A program made the translations under genes and the position numbers. The notes under the pieces are model-generated. The model saw only the letters and a program-made list of their open reading frames with translations. It searched no databases and was not told the origin of the DNA. 64,000 nt of DNA from Apostichopus japonicus (lineage: Eukaryota > Echinodermata > Holothuroidea > Aspidochirotida > Stichopodidae), in the NCBI RefSeq assembly GCF_037975245.1, contig NC_092572.1, positions 20,276,489 to 20,340,488 of the forward strand, read 5' to 3'. Shown here piece after piece: positions 13,942-22,675 of this stretch. The first letter of the stretch is position 1, and each line of letters begins with the position of its first letter.

Positions 13942-16443
13942 TCAAATCTTTTGGGAACTTTTCTGATTCGAGTCGGTCGGGTAGGTGTACTCTGCAGTTT
14001 GTAGTGGAGTTGCACTCCTATCCGAATAAGTTTCATCAGTTTGATACTTTTTGAGGTGAGCGGAATTCCTTTTGTATTGAACTCCTTCTGGGGATTCAAC
14101 AGTTACTTGACTATTAAATCTGTCAACCACTTCAAACGGTACTTCACAAAATGGTGCAGTTAACTTGTTTTGCTCCTTTTGTTTTACAAGTACATGATCG
14201 CCTATTTGAATGTCACTAGTTTTAACATGTCGTTTTACATCAGCATAATCCTTTGCTTTTTGTTTCATTTCAGTATCCCTGTCTTTCATGTTTTCTTCCT
14301 GACTTTGGGAAAATTTCACATCAGGTAATTTTGTCCTGAGTGACCTTTTGAAAAGACTCTCTGCAGGGCTCACACCTGTAGTAGAGTGTGGGGTGGAACG
14401 ATAAGCCAGCAGAAAGTTATTTAACTCTCTTTTCCAATCAGACTTTTGAATCTGTGCGATTTTGAGTACTTTTAAAATCGTCCTATTTTGCCTTTCAACT
14501 TCCCCGTTTGCCTGAGGCCATAACGGTGTACTCTTCCTATGTTCAACTCCTGAGGTACTCAAGAAGTTTTCAAATTCAATTGAAGTGAAATTAGAAGCAT
14601 TGTCAGTTTTGAGACTCTCTGGTAGGCCAAATCTACAAAACATGCGTTCCAAACATTCAATAACCTTTTCAGTAGTTATGGATTTCAGGATGTCTACTTC
14701 GAAAACTCTACTGTAGTAATCAACTGTTACTAACAAATATGATCCATCAGGTAGTGGGCCAAGAATATCAGTTGCCAAATGTTGCCAAGGTTCTGTCGGT
14801 AATGGTGTCGACTTTATTGGTTCTGGGAAATTTGCCTTACCAACTACCTGACAGCCGTGACATGATTTACATTTTCGTTCTATGTCCTTGTCGGCTCCAG
14901 GCCACCATACCTTTGTACGTAACCTTTGCTTGCTTTTAACTATGCCTTGATGGCCTTCGTGTGCTAAATTTATCACTTGAGCACGAAGAGATTGTGGAAT
15001 AACAATGCGGGTGCCCCTTAAAACTAATTGTCTCAACACTGCCAATTCGAACCTCACACTTTTGTACCCTTTTGGAATGTCTGTCCAGTTTTCATTTATG
15101 ACACATTTTCTTAACAATGATATTTCTGGATCCACTGATGATTCTTTTTCTACCTGTTGGATTGGTATCGCCACTGGAGTTGCATGACTAGCAATAAACC
15201 GAATATGTTCTTCCCCTATGTTTTGACCACTCGATTTTGCCCCCGTTTTGGAAATTAACCTTGAGAGACAATCAGCTATGTTCCTTGGACCAGGAATATA
15301 GACTACTTGGAAGTCATATGACTGCAACCTCAGGACCCATCGCTCAATTCGAGCAGAAGGTTTTGCCTTTTTAGCATAGATATACTGAAGAGGTTTGTGG
15401 TCAGTCAGCAACTCAAATGAAATACCATAAAGATATATATGAAATCTTTCACATGCCCACACGATTCCTAATGCTTCTTTCTCAGTTTGTGAGTAACGTT
15501 TCTCAACATCACTCAAACTTCTACTCGCATATGCTATTATGCGGGGCTGGCCTGCTTGAATTTGCACTAATATACCACCTAGACCGACTGGGCTTGCATC
15601 AGTTATGACTTTGGTTTTAGCGTTTGGGTCGAAATAACCTAGCGTTTCAGCCTTTGTCAATGCATCTTTAAGATCGCAAAATGATTTGTTTTGGTCTGGG
15701 CCGCAGTCAAATTTGACCCCTTTTTTTGTCAGTCGCCTTAGTGGTTCAGACACGGTCGCAAGATCTGGAATGAATCGCGCACAATATTGGACTAATCCAA
15801 GAAAACTACGGACTTCGCTTGCATTAGTAGGCCTGCATGCATCTTTTACTGCTTGAATTTTCTCATCACTGGGACTTACCCCATTGCTTGAGAGATCATG
15901 ACCCATGAATGTAAGTTTATCAAGACCAAATTGACATTTGTCCTTATTCAATGTTAAACCTGCTTTAGAGATACAGTCCAGTACTTTAACTAATCTGGTA
16001 TTGTGTTGTTCCTCGTCTTTCCCATGAACAATTATATCGTCAGAGATGCTGTGGGCTCCCTCACATCCTGCTATGACTTGCTGTATGATGTGTTGGTACG
16101 TTTCAGGAGCAGAGCTAATCCCGAACATAAGCCTCTTGTACCGGAATAGTCCAGCATGTGTGACGAATGTTGTAATTTCCCGAGAACTCTCCTCTAACTC
16201 GATCTGGTGAAAACCCCATTTTAGGTCTAGCTTGGTAAATAGGGAACTACCGTTCATTTCGTAGAGAACTTCTTCAACCGTAGGGATCGGGTGCCTTTCC
16301 CGGATGATCGCATCATTGGCTAATCTCATGTCAACACACAATCGAATATCGCCCCCAGATTTAGGAACTATAACTACCGGGCTTACCCAAGGTGTTGGGC
16401 CTTTAACTTCTTCGATGATATCTTGTTCCATTAGTTCCTTCAA
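13942..16443 (-). CDS. pol: Retrotransposon pol: RT, RNase H, integrase
   Basis: An open frame of 833 codons. The reverse transcriptase is at the N-terminus (LDLKWGFHQI; catalytic ISDDI near residue 134, with Ser-Asp-Asp in place of the usual Tyr-x-Asp-Asp). RNase H is near residue 280 (ITDASPVGLGG). The integrase has an HHCC zinc domain near 497-530 (HEGHQG...CKSCHGC) and D,D-35-E residues near 558 (DILG), 612 (TDNASNF) and 645 (ANGEVE). No chromodomain is evident. The frame has no ATG of its own at the upstream edge; it overlaps the gag-protease frame by four bases and lacks the first residues of the RT linker. All visible catalytic residues are kept. The enzyme copies element RNA into DNA and integrates it. 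Confidence 0.92.
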   Translation of the reverse strand: MKELMEQDIIEEVKGPTPWVSPVVIVPKSGGDIRLCVDMRLANDAIIRERHPIPTVEEVLYEMNGSSLFTKLDLKWGFHQIELEESSREITTFVTHAGLFRYKRLMFGISSAPETYQHIIQQVIAGCEGAHSISDDIIVHGKDEEQHNTRLVKVLDCISKAGLTLNKDKCQFGLDKLTFMGHDLSSNGVSPSDEKIQAVKDACRPTNASEVRSFLGLVQYCARFIPDLATVSEPLRRLTKKGVKFDCGPDQNKSFCDLKDALTKAETLGYFDPNAKTKVITDASPVGLGGILVQIQAGQPRIIAYASRSLSDVEKRYSQTEKEALGIVWACERFHIYLYGISFELLTDHKPLQYIYAKKAKPSARIERWVLRLQSYDFQVVYIPGPRNIADCLSRLISKTGAKSSGQNIGEEHIRFIASHATPVAIPIQQVEKESSVDPEISLLRKCVINENWTDIPKGYKSVRFELAVLRQLVLRGTRIVIPQSLRAQVINLAHEGHQGIVKSKQRLRTKVWWPGADKDIERKCKSCHGCQVVGKANFPEPIKSTPLPTEPWQHLATDILGPLPDGSYLLVTVDYYSRVFEVDILKSITTEKVIECLERMFCRFGLPESLKTDNASNFTSIEFENFLSTSGVEHRKSTPLWPQANGEVERQNRTILKVLKIAQIQKSDWKRELNNFLLAYRSTPHSTTGVSPAESLFKRSLRTKLPDVKFSQSQEENMKDRDTEMKQKAKDYADVKRHVKTSDIQIGDHVLVKQKEQNKLTAPFCEVPFEVVDRFNSQVTVESPEGVQYKRNSAHLKKYQTDETYSDRSATPLQTAEYTYPTDSNQKSSQKI

Positions 16444-17843
16444 CTTGTCCTTAACGTTGGTCGGAGGCTGAATGGAATTCTGCGTACGCTTTGTGCTACC
16501 GGTTTAACAGACTTATTAATGTGGATTTTCGCTTGATATCCTTTTAGTTTGCCGAATCCTTCAAAACATTGCGGATATTGTGCACGGATATCCTGTGCAC
16601 TCTTTACTTGGTTAATGTCAAGCCCTATTTTAAGCACATTCAGCTCAATTGCGCTCTCTTTCCCTAATAGAGGGCATCCTTCTCCATCGATGACGTAGAA
16701 TGTTGCTTCGGTTTTAGACTCGCGGATCTTTGCTGTCGTTGCAAATTTTCCTAGCACTTTTAACGGTTTTCCGCCTCCGTATGGATACAAAGTCTTATCT
16801 ATTTTTGCCGACTCGCAGGTTATCCGTTGTTGCTTTAAATTGTCCCATGTCTTTTTGTCGATAATGTTGCATGATGCGCCTGAATCAATCAGCATCTCCA
16901 CATTGACTCTCCCTACTTTTACATCTACTGTTACACCTGACTTACGGGAACTGGTCACTGCGAAGGCAAAGTCATTTGCCAAGTCAACTAGATTGACGTC
17001 ATCATCATCTTTTCTGTTCCGGTTTTGTCTTCCCCCTTTTTGCTTCCCCTTTTGATAACGTTCTGGTTTAGTTTTGCACATCTTCGCGAAATGCCCAATT
17101 AAATGACACTTTGTGCATACTTCATCTTTCGCGGGACAGTTTAAATCGCGTGAGAAATGTCCTCTACCGCAGCGATAACAACCAGTATCTTTATTATAGG
17201 CTTTTCCCTTTTTATTTTTATTCCAGTGTGCCCCTTTAAGGCTTGGCCTCACCTGATTTGACCTTTGGCTGACGCGATTAACTGATTCTGACTTTTCAGT
17301 GTTCAAGTTTGACCCATGGTTATTTTCTAACTCCATTGCTTTCATCTGTGCATCAACGGTTTCCATTGCTCGAGAAATTTCTTGTAAATCATCTAATTTT
17401 AGCCCTGTCCCTTTTGTCAACAATTTACGCCGTAGGGCTGACGAATTACATTTGTCAATCACTTGATCACGAATGTGCTCCTTTGATTCTTGGCCAAACA
17501 CGCAATTTACCGCTTGTCGCGTTAATCGCGCTATGAATTGGTCAACGGCTTCAGATTCCTCCTGTTTCATTTGGCGGAATATGTGCCGCTCATAAGGCAC
17601 GTTGACTTTAGGTGTGAAATAGTCATCTAATGTTTTCATAGTAAGCTCGTACTTACTCTGCGTTGTCGTCGTATCTGTACTATTAGTACTAGGTTGTAGT
17701 GTTGGCAACGTTTCAAACAGATCCTGTACATCCATGCCCGCCGTGTGTAGTAGTAATGCAGTTTTCTGTGCGTCATCGGTTATCCCCCTACTTGTTATGT
17801 AAAAGGTGAATGCCCTTTTCCAACGTTTCCATCGAGGAGACAT
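16440..17843 (-). CDS. gag: Retrotransposon gag and protease
   Basis: 467 codons from the ATG at 17843. The N-terminal half is capsid-like (WKRWKRAFTFYI; RQMKQEESEAVDQFIARL). Two CCHC zinc knuckles lie near residues 221-260 (CYRCGRGHF..., CTKCHLIGHFAKMC). An aspartic protease with LIDSGAS lies near residue 316. The frame ends shortly after the conserved RRIPFSLR linker that normally leads straight into RT, and RT continues in another frame. Because this join lies after protease, not between gag and protease, a disabling 1-base change is more likely than programmed frameshifting. The open frame runs further upstream without a stop into the foldback insertion at 17860. An in-frame ATG on the far side (19761-19759) looks like the original start, now cut off. 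Confidence 0.9.
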   Translation of the reverse strand: MSPRWKRWKRAFTFYITSRGITDDAQKTALLLHTAGMDVQDLFETLPTLQPSTNSTDTTTTQSKYELTMKTLDDYFTPKVNVPYERHIFRQMKQEESEAVDQFIARLTRQAVNCVFGQESKEHIRDQVIDKCNSSALRRKLLTKGTGLKLDDLQEISRAMETVDAQMKAMELENNHGSNLNTEKSESVNRVSQRSNQVRPSLKGAHWNKNKKGKAYNKDTGCYRCGRGHFSRDLNCPAKDEVCTKCHLIGHFAKMCKTKPERYQKGKQKGGRQNRNRKDDDDVNLVDLANDFAFAVTSSRKSGVTVDVKVGRVNVEMLIDSGASCNIIDKKTWDNLKQQRITCESAKIDKTLYPYGGGKPLKVLGKFATTAKIRESKTEATFYVIDGEGCPLLGKESAIELNVLKIGLDINQVKSAQDIRAQYPQCFEGFGKLKGYQAKIHINKSVKPVAQSVRRIPFSLRPTLRTS

Positions 17844-17854
17844 ACTTGCAAAGT

Positions 17855-17860
17855 CGCCCG
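17855..17860. repeat. 6-bp target duplication of foldback element (CGCCCG), left
   Basis: CGCCCG directly precedes the left terminus and is repeated at 19752-19757 after the right terminus. Confidence 0.85.
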
Positions 17861-17897
17861 TATGGCAAGCCGTTTTAACATTTACCTCTCTATTCTA

Positions 17898-18380
17898 CTT
17901 AAGTAGAATTAATTCCACTTAAGTAGAATACAATTAAGCTTAAGTGAAATGAATTGCACTTAAGTAGAATACAATTAAGCTTAAGTAAAATGAATTGCAC
18001 TTAAGTAGAATTGCATTTTACTTAAGTTTAATTGTATTCCACTTAAGTAAAATTACCACTTTCTTTTAAGCTTAAGTTAAATTCAATTTCACTTAAGCTT
18101 AATTGTATTCTACTTAAGTAAAATACAATTCTACTTAAGTAAAATTTAATTTAGCTTAAGTAAAAGTGTCATTCTTTTTCACTTAAGCTAAATGCATTTT
18201 ACTTAAGTAAAATTGTATTTTACTTAAGTAGAATACAATTAAGCTTAAGTGAAATTGAATTTAACTTAAGCTAAATTGTATTCTACTTAAGTAGAATTGT
18301 ATTTTACTTAAGTAGAATACAATTGCATTTTACTTAAGTAAAATTCAATTCTACTTAAGTAAAATACAATTTAGCTTAAG
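17898..18380. repeat. Left CTTAAG palindrome array (23 units)
   Basis: CTTAAG starts at 17898, 17918, 17939, 17959, 17980, 18000, 18021, 18042, 18071, 18092, 18113, 18134, 18155, 18182, 18202, 18223, 18244, 18265, 18286, 18307, 18333, 18354 and 18375. Steps are 20-21 bp except three of 26-29. Flanking bases on each side come from a small set (TTTTA, TTCTA, TTCCA, TTTCA, TTTAG, TTAAG, TTGCA) and are often mirrored. Confidence 0.97.
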
Positions 18381-18393
18381 TGGAAATGAAGGA

Positions 18394-18422
18394 TATGGCA
18401 AGCCGTTATATCGTTTACCTCG
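18394..18422 (+). repeat. Internal copy of the element terminus
   Basis: TATGGCAAGCCGTTATATCG followed by TTTACCTCG closely matches the left end at 17861, in the same direction. No inverted partner was found on the right side of the core. Confidence 0.8.
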
Positions 18423-19290
18423 TGTGGTTGGTCTGGGGGCAATGTTTACATGCATGGTACCATGCCTTGTGATACTTCTACTACTAGTACCACTGATTGG
18501 TGGTATGTCGTGTTGTAGTCGTTCCCTTGCCCTCAAAAGTGCTTTTCCAACTGCATCAGCAACAGTTTGCAACGATCTATTGGCTGGCTGCATTTACCAA
18601 ATGTCTAACGTTCAGACTCAGTGATAAACAAAGCTTTGCTTCATTTGCTAAGTATGGTGTTATGTTCGTATATACACAACGAAAGCTGGATAAGTATCGC
18701 AGAATGGGGGAATGGCCGCAAATGGTTACGTAACTAGTACGTCTTGAACGTAACTCTATAGGTCTCGCATCACAATTAATTGTTCCATTGACTTACACAC
18801 TAAACTCATCACTTTCAAGACCTGCCAAAGCATAGATAGAAGTTTTCATCTGGTATATCCTACCCACCACATGATAGCTGTGTTCTAGTGGCCTATCATG
18901 GCATTTGCAAACTTCCATATCATGACCGTTTAGATTATGAGCTAGAAGAGGAGCAAGTTTATCACACTGAACCCTTCCATATGCTCGTTCGGAGTAATAT
19001 CAACATTTAACCAAAGATTTTTAAAATGGTTTATATCACCTTCGATCCTCCCTATTTTCACACCATCTGTACTTAAAATTATGCTCTTTCATATAAAGGC
19101 AGAAAAAACGATGACAGTAAATGATAACATGCTTTAGGAAGCTTTACGTTAGGTACTTTTACCTCTTTTCTGACAATGGTAAACCTATTGAGCGGATGAA
19201 CACGTGGTGAGGTACCTAAAATAGTATACAGAGTCGGACTTCGCGGCAAGTACAGTGACGCAATGAGTAGCATATACTGATTGACCAATC
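18423..19290. other. Core of foldback element; no gene recognised
   Basis: Unique-looking sequence between the two palindrome arrays. Open frames are 65-80 codons with no known motif. Confidence 0.5.
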
Positions 19291-19298
19291 ACATTTTA

Positions 19299-19714
19299 CT
19301 TAAGCTAAATTGCATTTTACTTAAGTGAAATAGATTGACCAATCACATTTCACTTAAGCGTAATTCTATTTCACTTAAGTAAAATGCAATTTAGCTTAAG
19401 TGAAATTGAAAAGCCATTTTGCTTAAGTAGAATAGCATTTTACTTAAGTAGAATTGAATTTTACTTAAGCAGAATTGCATTTTACTTAAGTAGAATTGAA
19501 TTTTACTTAAGCAGAATTGTATTTTACTTAAGTAGAATTGTATTTTACTTAAGTAAAATACGATGTAGACAAAAACCGTTTGAACTTAAGCTAATATGAA
19601 TTCCACTTAAGTGGAATACAATTAAGCTTAAGTAAAATGCAATTCTACTTAAGTGCAATTCATTTTACTTAAGCTTAATTGTATTCTACTTAAGTGGAAT
19701 TAATTCTACTTAAG
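19299..19714. repeat. Right CTTAAG palindrome array (19 units)
   Basis: CTTAAG starts at 19299, 19320, 19353, 19374, 19395, 19422, 19443, 19464, 19485, 19506, 19527, 19548, 19585, 19606, 19627, 19648, 19668, 19689 and 19709. Steps are mostly exactly 21 bp. An ATTGACCAATCACATTT phrase occurs twice near 19280 and 19333. The reading frame that gives FYLSRI repeats at 19384-19599 is a by-product of the 21-bp period. Confidence 0.97.
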
Positions 19715-19751
19715 TAGAATAGAGAGGTAAATGTTAAAACGGCTTGCCATA

Positions 19752-19757
19752 CGCCCG
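19752..19757. repeat. 6-bp target duplication of foldback element, right
   Basis: CGCCCG, the partner of 17855-17860. Confidence 0.85.
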
Positions 19758-19998: not shown

Positions 19999-22675
19999 TA
20001 CGCGATGTTATCTACGTTATCCACACAGTAGTTCTCGGATTTGTGAGGTTTTGACGGGTACTATCGGATTTTTGACGTTTTGTATTGTGTTCAATTTGTT
20101 AATTTGCATGTCCATTCTACGCCTTCGTACTTTACCTACCAGAATTGTGCTGGCGTCCTTCTCAATAAGCCGTTTCCTTTTGTTTTCGGCGGAGGATCTG
20201 TTCTTCCCGAGTTCTATCTCCCTACACTATCAAGTGCTCATCCAGCTAGCATCACATACATTGAACTGGTTAGTGTTGTATAAATAATTTTTAGAAGAAA
20301 GGATATTTCGATAGAGACCAAGAAGGTACTTGGTGAAACAGTGTCTTATACACGCCTAACAGTAAGAGACAGCTGTGACTGCATTACTTGTCTTCGGATG
20401 GAATCTTAATGATCCATTTTTGGGGGGATTTACTTGTTTTAATAGCAGAAGTAATACTATCTATGGCCGAGTAAAACCGTACAGCAGAGTAAGACGTTAT
20501 TGTGTGAGTTTGTTTGACAACATGTCGTCATAGAGTTAGCTTAACATTAGACATATACTCGGTACTTTACATTGTATGGTGGTGTATACAGACTTGGCGT
20601 GTCTCATAACTTCGCGTACGGTGGTACACAATGACCTAGCGTAAAATATTTATTTACTCTTACAGACTTAATGTAGGATATTAGAAGTAGAAATGTGATT
20701 GGAATTAAAATTGTATTCGCATCTTTGTAATCAACTTAAATCTATACAACCACAGCAAAACGGTGGAACAATGTAAAGTGATATGAAACGAATAAACGTC
20801 AACTTTGTTTTCAAAGGCATTTTCACGAATTATTGCACTCAATTAGATAACTCAAATTAGGCTACCATGTTGGAATAATTTGTTGCTGTTTCGAGCATTT
20901 GTACATGTAGAATTTCACAACAACTGTAAATAACATTTCAATTTATTGTAAACGTTTATAATGATAATGTTAAAGGGAATATTTTAGTGAAAATGGGATC
21001 CAGTCCTTCCTGTCATATCACTTTTTGATTTTGTATCGCTCTAGGCCTTGCCCTGTGAAGAATTGTAGTTGCTGTGATAGAGTGCTTGGAATGTTGGAAT
21101 GCTGTCGAATCCAAGGACTGACTTACGTAGAGGCGTGACGTCAGTGAGGCACATTGGTCAGACTCGATCAGATCTCACTCTAAGCTTGGCCTTGATACGC
21201 GACACATGAATGTGTACATACTTCGCGTACGGCCGTGAATATGAAAGATTTCACGCAGAACTTGGCCTTTATACACTGCATAGGAAACTGTACAGAATTA
21301 ACACACGGCTGTGAATACAACGTGATGACGCCACGAAGGCCCCTCTGTTGGAACGATTACAAAAATCTCTCAAATAACAAATATCGGAACAAAATATTAT
21401 GAAGAAGAACTAGTTAGGGATTTCTGAAACGTTTTAACTCTCCAAAGGATGCTTACTTGCAACTAAACCGAAACATTTCCATCTACATTGCTATTTTTAT
21501 TTCAGAAATTTTAACTTTCTTCGCTACAGTGTAGCTTGCTAATGATAGCGTCCCTGGAACCCCCGAAACGAAGTGCCGAGATGACGTCACCGTCGCTAAT
21601 TGTTCTCCACTGTTTCAAAAGTATTGTAGATTAAGTTGGCGCCAGGTTCAAAAATTCACTTCTCCTGCAAAATAGGATGAAAAATCCACGAACTAGGACA
21701 GTGGCAATGAAGATGTTATAGAGTAGTTTCCATAAACCCAATACACCTCCACCGAAAAAAAAAACCATGAAATGTCTATGAAATGCAGAATGACGTTGTG
21801 CGGGCAAAAGTTTTCATAACACAAAACAAATTATGATAAATGTTCTTCATCAAATTACGAAATTTAAAATTGAAGGCGATACTGACTTTTGTAGGCATTA
21901 CATTGATTCCCTAAATTTGCATATTGTTAACGCCTTATCCCTCTATAAAACTTCTGAGACAAATTAACTTGCTCTTTCTGACTCAGTTCTGCGAAACCGT
22001 AAATAATACTAGCTGGTATCATATTCGGATAGTATCTCATTACTGTTTTCAAATACTAGCTATATATTAAGTTTCAAATCAGTTAAGGCCAATAACATTA
22101 ACAATTTTGGCAGTGCCGATTTAGTTTCGACATTGAGAAAAAAATCTCGGCATGGTACCTGTCGCAGAAAACAATACCGGAGGATATTTTTTACTTTTTT
22201 TTACTTTTACAAAATTTCGCGTAGAGGAATAATTTTAGACCTCCCGCCTAAGTTTGCCAAAAAAAAAAGGAAGCCTAGCACACGAATCGCAAATGTATTC
22301 AGAGATTATTTTTTTCACAGTACATATTTCCCACTATATCACTACACAACACAAGCTGACTGGCTGGCTCGTTTTAAACAGGCCATGATTACTGATGTAT
22401 GAAGTTCTAGTACATACTTTGTAACTTTTATCCGTCAAAAGTCTTTAGCATTTGTGTCCGTCTGTGCCATAACCTACATGTGCATTCTGTTCATAACGTT
22501 TGATAACATAAAAAGTGCAACATTGTTTGGAGTTTTATATTGTGGATATCCCTGTCCTCCTATAAAATTAGTGTTTGAAGAACTTTTTCATCTAAAGGAA
22601 TTGTTTTACAAATAGGTGGTAAATTGCAATTGTAGCCCTAAACTAAAAATACTAAACTTCATGTTGTCTTTACAG
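19999..22675. other. No gene recognised; upstream region of Ig receptor
   Basis: No family motif in the short open frames. Because a splice acceptor ends at 22675, the promoter and a non-coding first exon of the Ig receptor should lie here or further upstream; I could not place them. Confidence 0.45.

Follow-up and report, generated by a model that had tools for sequence, protein, structure and literature searches.

At positions 17861–19751 of the window, by which we mean the whole stretch of 64 kb that was analysed, lies an element of 1,891 bp (no strand assigned) that fits a non-autonomous, IS3EU-like transposon, and of which the bounds follow from its terminal inverted repeat (TIR), its target site duplication (TSD) and empty sites elsewhere in the genome. 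The left terminus, TATGGCAAGCCGTTTTAACATTTACCTCTC (17861–17890, + strand), of which the first 28 bases recur across the genome, returns as its reverse complement at the right end (19722–19751, − strand), and the perfect TIR extends over 85 bp. Directly outside the termini are two copies of CGCCCG (17855–17860 and 19752–19757, both + strand). The left arm (17892–18390) consists of 23 CTTAAG units, mostly 20–21 bp apart and with the consensus ATTN2RCTTAAGYN2AAT, and the right arm (19292–19720) of 19 units of the same kind; neither arm has an assigned strand. Such long inverted repeats built of sub-repeats are the structure of the foldback class. On recount, the original prediction of a 1.9-kb TIR element with 42 CTTAAG centres (23 + 19), an 85-bp perfect TIR and a 6-bp duplication was correct in all these respects.

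Just inside the left arm is a second, internal copy of the terminus (18394–18421, + strand, 3 mismatches in 28 bases), which may be the record of an end-to-end joining that occurred when the derivative arose. Such an imperfect internal terminus is also present in several relatives of the window copy, with other flanks in loci L025–L027.

The insertion is proved by the occurrence of the joined flanks, without the element, at seven other genomic places, which match uninterrupted over all 161 bp with 94–98% identity and carry a single CGCCCG. The search with the joined flanks gave nine matches in total, the remaining two being both halves at the window itself. The host of the insertion is a repeated retroelement, in which a gag-protease-like ORF (16440–17843, − strand) and a polymerase-like frame (13945–16503) were named by eye. 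The frames of this retroelement occupy the region 13945–17894 (− strand), with 17 bp between the ATG of the gag-like frame and the element.

No fewer than 42 of the 54 CTTAAG hexamers of the window are inside the element, with centres at 17898–18375 (23, left) and 19299–19709 (19, right), whereas base composition predicts about 0.3 for the 995 arm bases. Outside the element, the window contains 0.19 per kb. In the window element 34 of 40 steps are 20 or 21 bp, as are 877 of 1076 steps under 100 bp across 28 copies. The claim that every centre faces the same side of the DNA holds within such runs; it does not hold along the whole arm, since the remaining steps of 26, 27, 27, 29, 33 and 37 bp break the helical phase and the coherence over the whole arm, taken at 10.5 bp, amounts to only 0.24 on the left and 0.26 on the right. 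It rises to 0.69 and 0.73 with a period of 10.2 bp, which was chosen after the fact. The arms are indeed made of units centred on CTTAAG, as was predicted, but most of these are not long perfect palindromes, a palindrome half-length of at least 9 being found in only 7 of the 42. What is nearly fixed is the combination of ATT, CTTAAG and AAT at set distances, which gives the conserved unit ATT-N2-R-CTTAAG-Y-N2-AAT. The earlier statement that the hexamer never changes is partly circular, because CTTAAG itself was used to find the units; nearly fixed is the proper description.

Copies, target sites and gene-bearing relatives

The genome searched has 35 contigs and 671,581,487 bases in total. A query with the initial 28 bases of the terminus gave 525 matches with at most two mismatches (261 forward, 264 reverse), and the pattern read backwards gave none. 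Full copies could be collected, and, as predicted for a transposon, they have their ends in common. A first set, family 1, consists of 31 fetched loci and the window, with both ends present in 28. These copies were picked by an exact match to the 85-bp end of the window element, so that older copies are under-represented. The complete copies, the window included, carry an exact 6-bp TSD in 24 of 28 cases. Family-1 copies are 1.6–2.3 kb long, have 34–52 CTTAAG each and are 94–99.8% identical to the window copy where aligned; in several other copies the perfect terminal run is 3–28 bp and the TIR goes on with mismatches. A second group, family B, has the same terminus, arms that are about 75% identical to those of family 1, a length of 1.4–3.9 kb and an ORF beginning with MATANHSH or similar. 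In the family-B batch, 11 of 15 complete copies have exact TSDs, with L036 (family-1 interior) and L044 (of mixed type) included in the count.

Of the 61 complete copies taken together, 53 have exact TSDs and 8 are without one. These counts leave out L007, L010 and L019, of which the second end is outside the piece; L001 and L002 are search loci of copies that were fetched again, L032 is part of the gene-bearing copy B described below, and L006, which has a further right end, was counted once. The target consensus is CGGCCG, with G at position 2 in 86% and C at position 1 in 62% (50 TSDs, both strands; L036, L026, which has the flanks of L025, and one member of a C12 pair with identical TSDs were left out).

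Copies differ by gains and losses of whole units, in steps of 42 bp, up to one copy with 52 CTTAAG. The loci L026 (C3:7766380–7768697) and L025 (C3:7817525–7819411), with 52 and 37 CTTAAG, share flanks and TSD at a distance of about 50 kb, and are apparently one insertion that was duplicated, after which the array was altered in unit number.

The distribution of family B has a pattern of its own. Towards contig ends, copies occur every 170–240 kb or so (with one larger gap), many of them 93% identical to the query at equal score, at C19:31.00–32.36 Mb, C20:0.28–1.24 Mb and C21:0.20–0.79 Mb, with further runs at C14:0.15–0.37 Mb, C11:0.13–0.37 Mb and C4:29.27–29.49 Mb. This pattern, of which one place was read (L047), looks like a large subtelomeric repeat with one element per unit.

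For two ORFs inside the 1.9-kb family, Pfam gave nothing at E ≤ 1, and for the ORF of family B it gave sub-threshold matches only. Inspection by eye gave no transposase-like core among the ORFs of at least 60 aa in the longer copies L034, L035, L037, L038 and L042, nor in the two longest ORFs of L036. A genome search with the IS481 profile NF033577, in which 68 of 1287 candidates were scored, did not lead to a gene-bearing element either; many of its matches were in open frames longer than 1,000 aa, which is what retroelement polyproteins would give.

The gene-bearing element was reached through the family-B ORF. Among its 117 matches the least similar one (38%), at C16:5813049, is adjoined by an exact terminus and a 23-unit arm, and near it on the same strand are frames for an N-terminal domain, a helix-turn-helix (GRPK...) and an integrase-like core. 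The complete element, copy A, extends over C16:5792413–5813831 (21,419 bp), with the TSD CGAACC on both sides and a perfect TIR of 49 bp; copy B, at C1:12260970–12283636 (22,667 bp), has the TSD CGGCCG. Both have CTTAAG arms at both ends, and the longer, transposase-bearing relative that had been proposed as a check on the prediction thus exists, with a split DDE gene. The two copies are 92.6% identical over the first 473 bp of the arm and then 97.6–99.1% in pieces out to 17.6 kb of copy A, past which one 1.5-kb stretch was compared (98%). They differ by insertions and in the length of a minisatellite, and their alignment begins 2 bp outside the terminus, where both targets end in CG. The matches on C1 to the DDE exon and the HECT frame of copy A are 97% and 100% identical, respectively, without stops.

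The arms of copy A enclose two genes on opposite strands, the split transposase gene and a HECT-domain gene. A 161-bp minisatellite with about 18 units is located between them, about 5.9–8.7 kb from the transposase-side end of copy A (L050), and is much shorter in copy B. The DDE core with its upstream exon matches the Pfam family rva_4 (E = 1.9e-90) and the IS481 model (E = 2.9e-10, which is below the cut-off of that model); the spacing is D-56-D-34-E across the presumed splice. The helix-turn-helix exon matches HTH_7 with E = 1.8e-4 and 22.0 bits, below the cut-off of 23.8, and the HECT frame matches Pfam HECT with E = 1.1e-11. A sequence comparison of the DDE protein with the PDB gave no match at E ≤ 1.

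The association of the two genes extends beyond copies A and B. The HECT ORF gave 48 matches in 37 loci, of which 20 are within 15 kb of a match to the DDE core, all 20 convergent, and the other 17 have none within that distance; the expected number of such neighbours is 0.4 for random places and 0.7 for local displacement. The 20 loci include copies of the same families and are not independent events. The convergent transposase-HECT pair suggests that these elements regularly carry an accessory ubiquitin ligase. Many partial or broken matches to the transposase core are concentrated in one 10-Mb stretch of C17 (about 15–25 Mb), which is perhaps the pericentromere.

The window copy is evidently a gene-less relative that has its arms in common with copy A. 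Element positions 1–534 are 97.8% identical to the left arm of copy A and positions 1419–1891 are 97.5% identical to its right end, both in the same orientation. From the interior, 333 of 918 bp match copy A, and among the matches listed there is no other interior one. The matching stretch (window 18424–18756, − strand) is akin to the right-hand region of copy A (20494–20810, 85%) and holds an exon-like ORF, MQPANRSLQTVADAVGKAL..., which reads MQPANRS... in the window and MQPANQS... in copy A. Because only about one third of the interior is matched, at 85%, as compared to 97–98% for the arms, the direct parent of the window copy was probably a relative of copy A with an interior that copy A lacks, rather than copy A itself. 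The exon-like ORF is on the HECT-side strand, upstream of the other frames of the HECT gene; from strand and place one may guess that it is perhaps a 5' exon of the HECT-side gene.

Conservation and symmetry of the arm units

If the units have a function, they should change more slowly than their surroundings, and the original prediction had indeed suggested selection on the core. Rates were determined as substitutions from the majority base in the non-CpG columns of the 28 family-1 copies, CpG positions being dropped from the rates by class and kept in the rates per offset. The hexamers were substituted in 57 of 7092 cells (0.80%), as compared to 357 of 21938 (1.63%) in the arms outside the hexamers and 382 of 19761 (1.93%) in the interior, so that CTTAAG changes 2.4 times more slowly; a difference between hexamer and arm of this size was reached in 1 of 5000 column permutations. 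The terminal 30 bases are similarly conserved (13 of 1568, 0.83%). Within the unit, the ATT and AAT positions (−6 to −4 and +9 to +11) show 41 changes in 6938 cells (0.59%), half of them at +11, which alone reaches 1.7%. The N3 positions change at 2.1% (148 of 6930), similar to the interior with 1.9%, and the linker at 2.4% (111 of 4570). As N3 and the interior have similar rates, the contrast does not stem mainly from misaligned units.

Variants present in at least two copies occur in 6 of 258 hexamer columns, 27 of 250 N3 columns and 74 of 713 interior columns (hexamer versus interior, p = 8e-6). Both the substitution counts inside and outside CTTAAG and these shared variants are in agreement with the predicted selection on the core. 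Part of the effect is also found in singletons, with 0.140 versus 0.208 per column, where selection on source copies should show less, and this counts against reading the units as selected transposase sites. In family B (11 of the 14 fetched copies, L035, L038 and L044 being left out) singletons were counted in 20 of 246 hexamer columns and 91 of 588 interior columns (p = 0.002). Exchange or conversion between units could lower the apparent change at common positions and imitate selection.

Tandem arrays grow easily, and the gains and losses of whole units among copies, including the copy with 52 CTTAAG, are what one would expect if the arms were a passive, satellite-like expansion, generated by slippage or unequal exchange and homogenised by conversion, without selection on the core. 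We consider this quite unlikely, as hexamer positions change 2.7 times less and ATT/AAT positions 3.6 times less than N3, while N3 itself behaves like the interior, and as the design recurs in a sister family with a different core that is again slow to change (see below).

The palindromic cores and the foldback arms also raise the possibility, mentioned in the original prediction, that the formation of a cruciform or hairpin by each palindrome is the selected feature. For this, the self-complementarity of the variable halves of the units was compared with that of re-paired (shuffled) halves. The second variable position tends to pair above expectation, with 22 versus 17.5 in the window (fraction of shuffles at or above this value 0.078), 21 versus 16.6 in copy A (0.098) and 30 versus 26.0 in family B (0.018). 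However, in the same three sets the first position does not exceed expectation (24 versus 27.8, 25 versus 28.8 and 33 versus 33.5), the third has no consistent excess (16 versus 16.1, 18 versus 15.5 and 17 versus 22.0), and the variable position of family 2, the sister family described below, is below expectation (9 versus 14.3). The symmetry at the second position reads as a mild half-site preference, as the half-sites of a dimer would equally show, and may in part be structural. Because substitution at the variable positions is as frequent as in the interior, and self-complementarity there is inconsistent, protein binding is favoured, and selection for cruciforms appears very improbable. Cleavage at the CTTAAG cores, another suggestion of that prediction, found no support either; the duplicated target lies outside the terminus.

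Sister families with other cores

Six loci with transposase cores that are 45–51% identical to that of copy A were opened at their left ends. One of these lineages, family 2 (core 51% identical), starts with TATGGCAAGCCGTTTTACTTTTTATTCG, which keeps the first 17 bases of the family-1 terminus, followed by 27 GATATC units that are again mostly 20–21 bp apart (ATTTGNTGATATCANCAAAT); its right arm has 22 GATATC units. The family-2 terminus gave 183 matches at two mismatches or fewer (control 0), and in four elements of 20.4–26.0 kb, matches to both transposase and HECT lie between two such termini. The TSDs are exact in all 16 copies read; two copies on C12 with one TSD are probably one insertion that was duplicated. 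In nine copies (not counting the autonomous ones, L068, L069 and L078, the last of which is without the internal query), GATATC was substituted in 11 of 2568 cells (0.43%), as compared to 90 of 6537 (1.38%) in the other arm positions and 244 of 16372 (1.49%) outside the arms.

Two family-2 copies of 468 and 438 bp consist only of ends with 19 and 18 GATATC units, and have exact TSDs. If these copies moved as such, rather than shrinking in place, ends and arrays suffice in cis. A long array is not needed by every relative, since family 3 (TATGGTTGGCCG...), of which the termini enclose transposase as well as HECT matches in three elements of 18.4–18.7 kb, has at its left end only four ACGCGT, at distances of 19, 23 and 19 bp. 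In family 4, two left ends have ATGN4CAT units, 11 in one and 13 in the other, with a spacing of mostly 22 bp, and TATGG is present at the left ends of both family 3 and family 4.

Proteins other than the transposase could also be the ligand of the units. In copy A one arm is upstream of each of the two convergent genes, and TTAAGTG resembles the sites of NK-class homeodomain proteins, so that the arrays could be sites for a host transcription factor or repressor that drives or silences the transposon genes. This is unlikely, as arm-only copies without genes keep 18–19 units and exact TSDs, and as a single host factor would leave unexplained why CTTAAG, GATATC and ATGN4CAT cores occur in one genome. 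The best reading of the comparison is that the site sequence diverged together with the transposase. The helix-turn-helix region is less conserved between families 1 and 2 (40.5% identity over 79 residues) than exon 3 (58% over 64) and the DDE core (55% over 121). This is what a joint change of site and DNA-binding part would produce, although a single pair of families is no proof.

Proposed mechanism and comparison with known systems

In the reading that we consider likely, the window element is the non-autonomous relative of a large, IS3EU-like transposon with genes for a DDE transposase and a convergent HECT ligase, and its arm units are transposase-dimer sites that load both ends; the incomplete match of the interior with copy A slightly lowers our confidence. 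The data above show the relationship to the gene-bearing element, the ends, TSDs and target preference, the conservation of the unit, arm-only copies with TSDs and the different core of a sister family. We infer that it is the transposase, and not another protein, that would bind the units, as a dimer, and that the array would serve synapsis. Each end has a 30-bp terminus and then about 20 palindromic units in a row, each of which could accommodate a dimer, bound through its helix-turn-helix domain to half-sites of approximately ATTNNRCTT. Rows of bound dimers, spaced by about two helical turns, would load transposase on each end and assist the pairing of both ends. The DDE core would then act at the TATGG..CCATA termini, and insertion into a CGGCCG-like target would generate the 6-bp duplications. 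The window copy, having kept both arms and termini, would be mobile in trans.

A broader scenario is put forward more tentatively, as a real possibility that we would not yet bet on. It holds that in an IS3EU-like lineage the ends grew into long rows of palindromic transposase sites at intervals of about two helical turns, and that the core was switched between families (CTTAAG, GATATC, ATGN4CAT) together with the DNA-binding domain, each transposase driving only its own derivatives. The standard gene set would be a transposase with a convergent HECT ligase that takes part in the transposition cycle or counters host control.

Mutator-like elements have TSDs of 8 bp or more, and Kolobok and piggyBac elements duplicate TTAA. 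The TSD of 6 bp rules out the former, and its length and GC-rich, CGGCCG-like sequence rule out the latter. Among echinoderms, the TU elements of sea urchin are foldback elements with subrepeats; compared by description, they differ in having an 8-bp TSD and 15-bp subrepeats. The available parts of the IS3EU descriptions give TA..TA or TAYGG..CCRTA ends, a 6-bp TSD, a DDE transposase with weak IS481 similarity and, for fungal families, a TIR longer than 30 bp, with an accessory alpha-kinase gene opposite to the transposase in TET-bearing families (PMC10045372, PMC12730594). The elements studied here have TATGG..CCATA ends in families 1, B and 2, a 6-bp TSD, TIRs of 85 bp (window) and 49 bp (copy A) and an accessory gene opposite to the transposase. 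The original prediction could name no family; ends and TSD fit IS3EU, and the putative placement is based on ends, TSD and domain. A HECT ligase in place of the alpha-kinase, arms of about 20 palindromic units and a length of 18–26 kb are features for which the available parts of the IS3EU descriptions have no counterpart.

The literature search, to which Repbase entries did not belong, gave no work joining IS3EU, HECT and transposon. For IS3EU and ubiquitin it gave, in the text available, only a fungal genome comparison and a buffalo methylation study, and for IS3EU and foldback only an oyster paper in which the two words are unrelated. In oyster, the satellite DNAs CgiSat35 and CgiSat47 are labelled IS3EU (PMC8268682, available in part), and repeats related to IS3EU-type elements may occur in molluscs too. 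The combination of palindromic arrays, a HECT partner and differing cores in sister families was not found described in the literature searched.

Among foldback elements, Tetris, as far as described in the parts available (PMC4079207), is similar in its long TIRs with internal repeats and its non-autonomous copies; its TSD is 8–10 bp, its internal repeats are about 220 bp and its autonomous partner was not found, whereas here the TSD is 6 bp and a gene-bearing relative is present. The nearest working example of such an end appears to be Muta1 of Aedes aegypti, an active Mutator-like type-2 foldback element that, according to the accessible part of its description (PMC5225508), has short subterminal repeat arrays and derivatives that share mainly the TIR. 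It belongs to a different superfamily, with a TSD of 8–9 bp and nine 12-bp repeats with 3–4 bp spacers, and by analogy the element in the window may work like Muta1, of which the TSD length excludes it as a member. Foldback elements are often orphans, lacking a known enzyme that moves them. Here one genome contains gene-bearing elements and their derivatives, along with arm-only copies and a sister family with another core, and such a set makes it testable how arrays of sites form the end of a transposon and how the site evolves with its enzyme.
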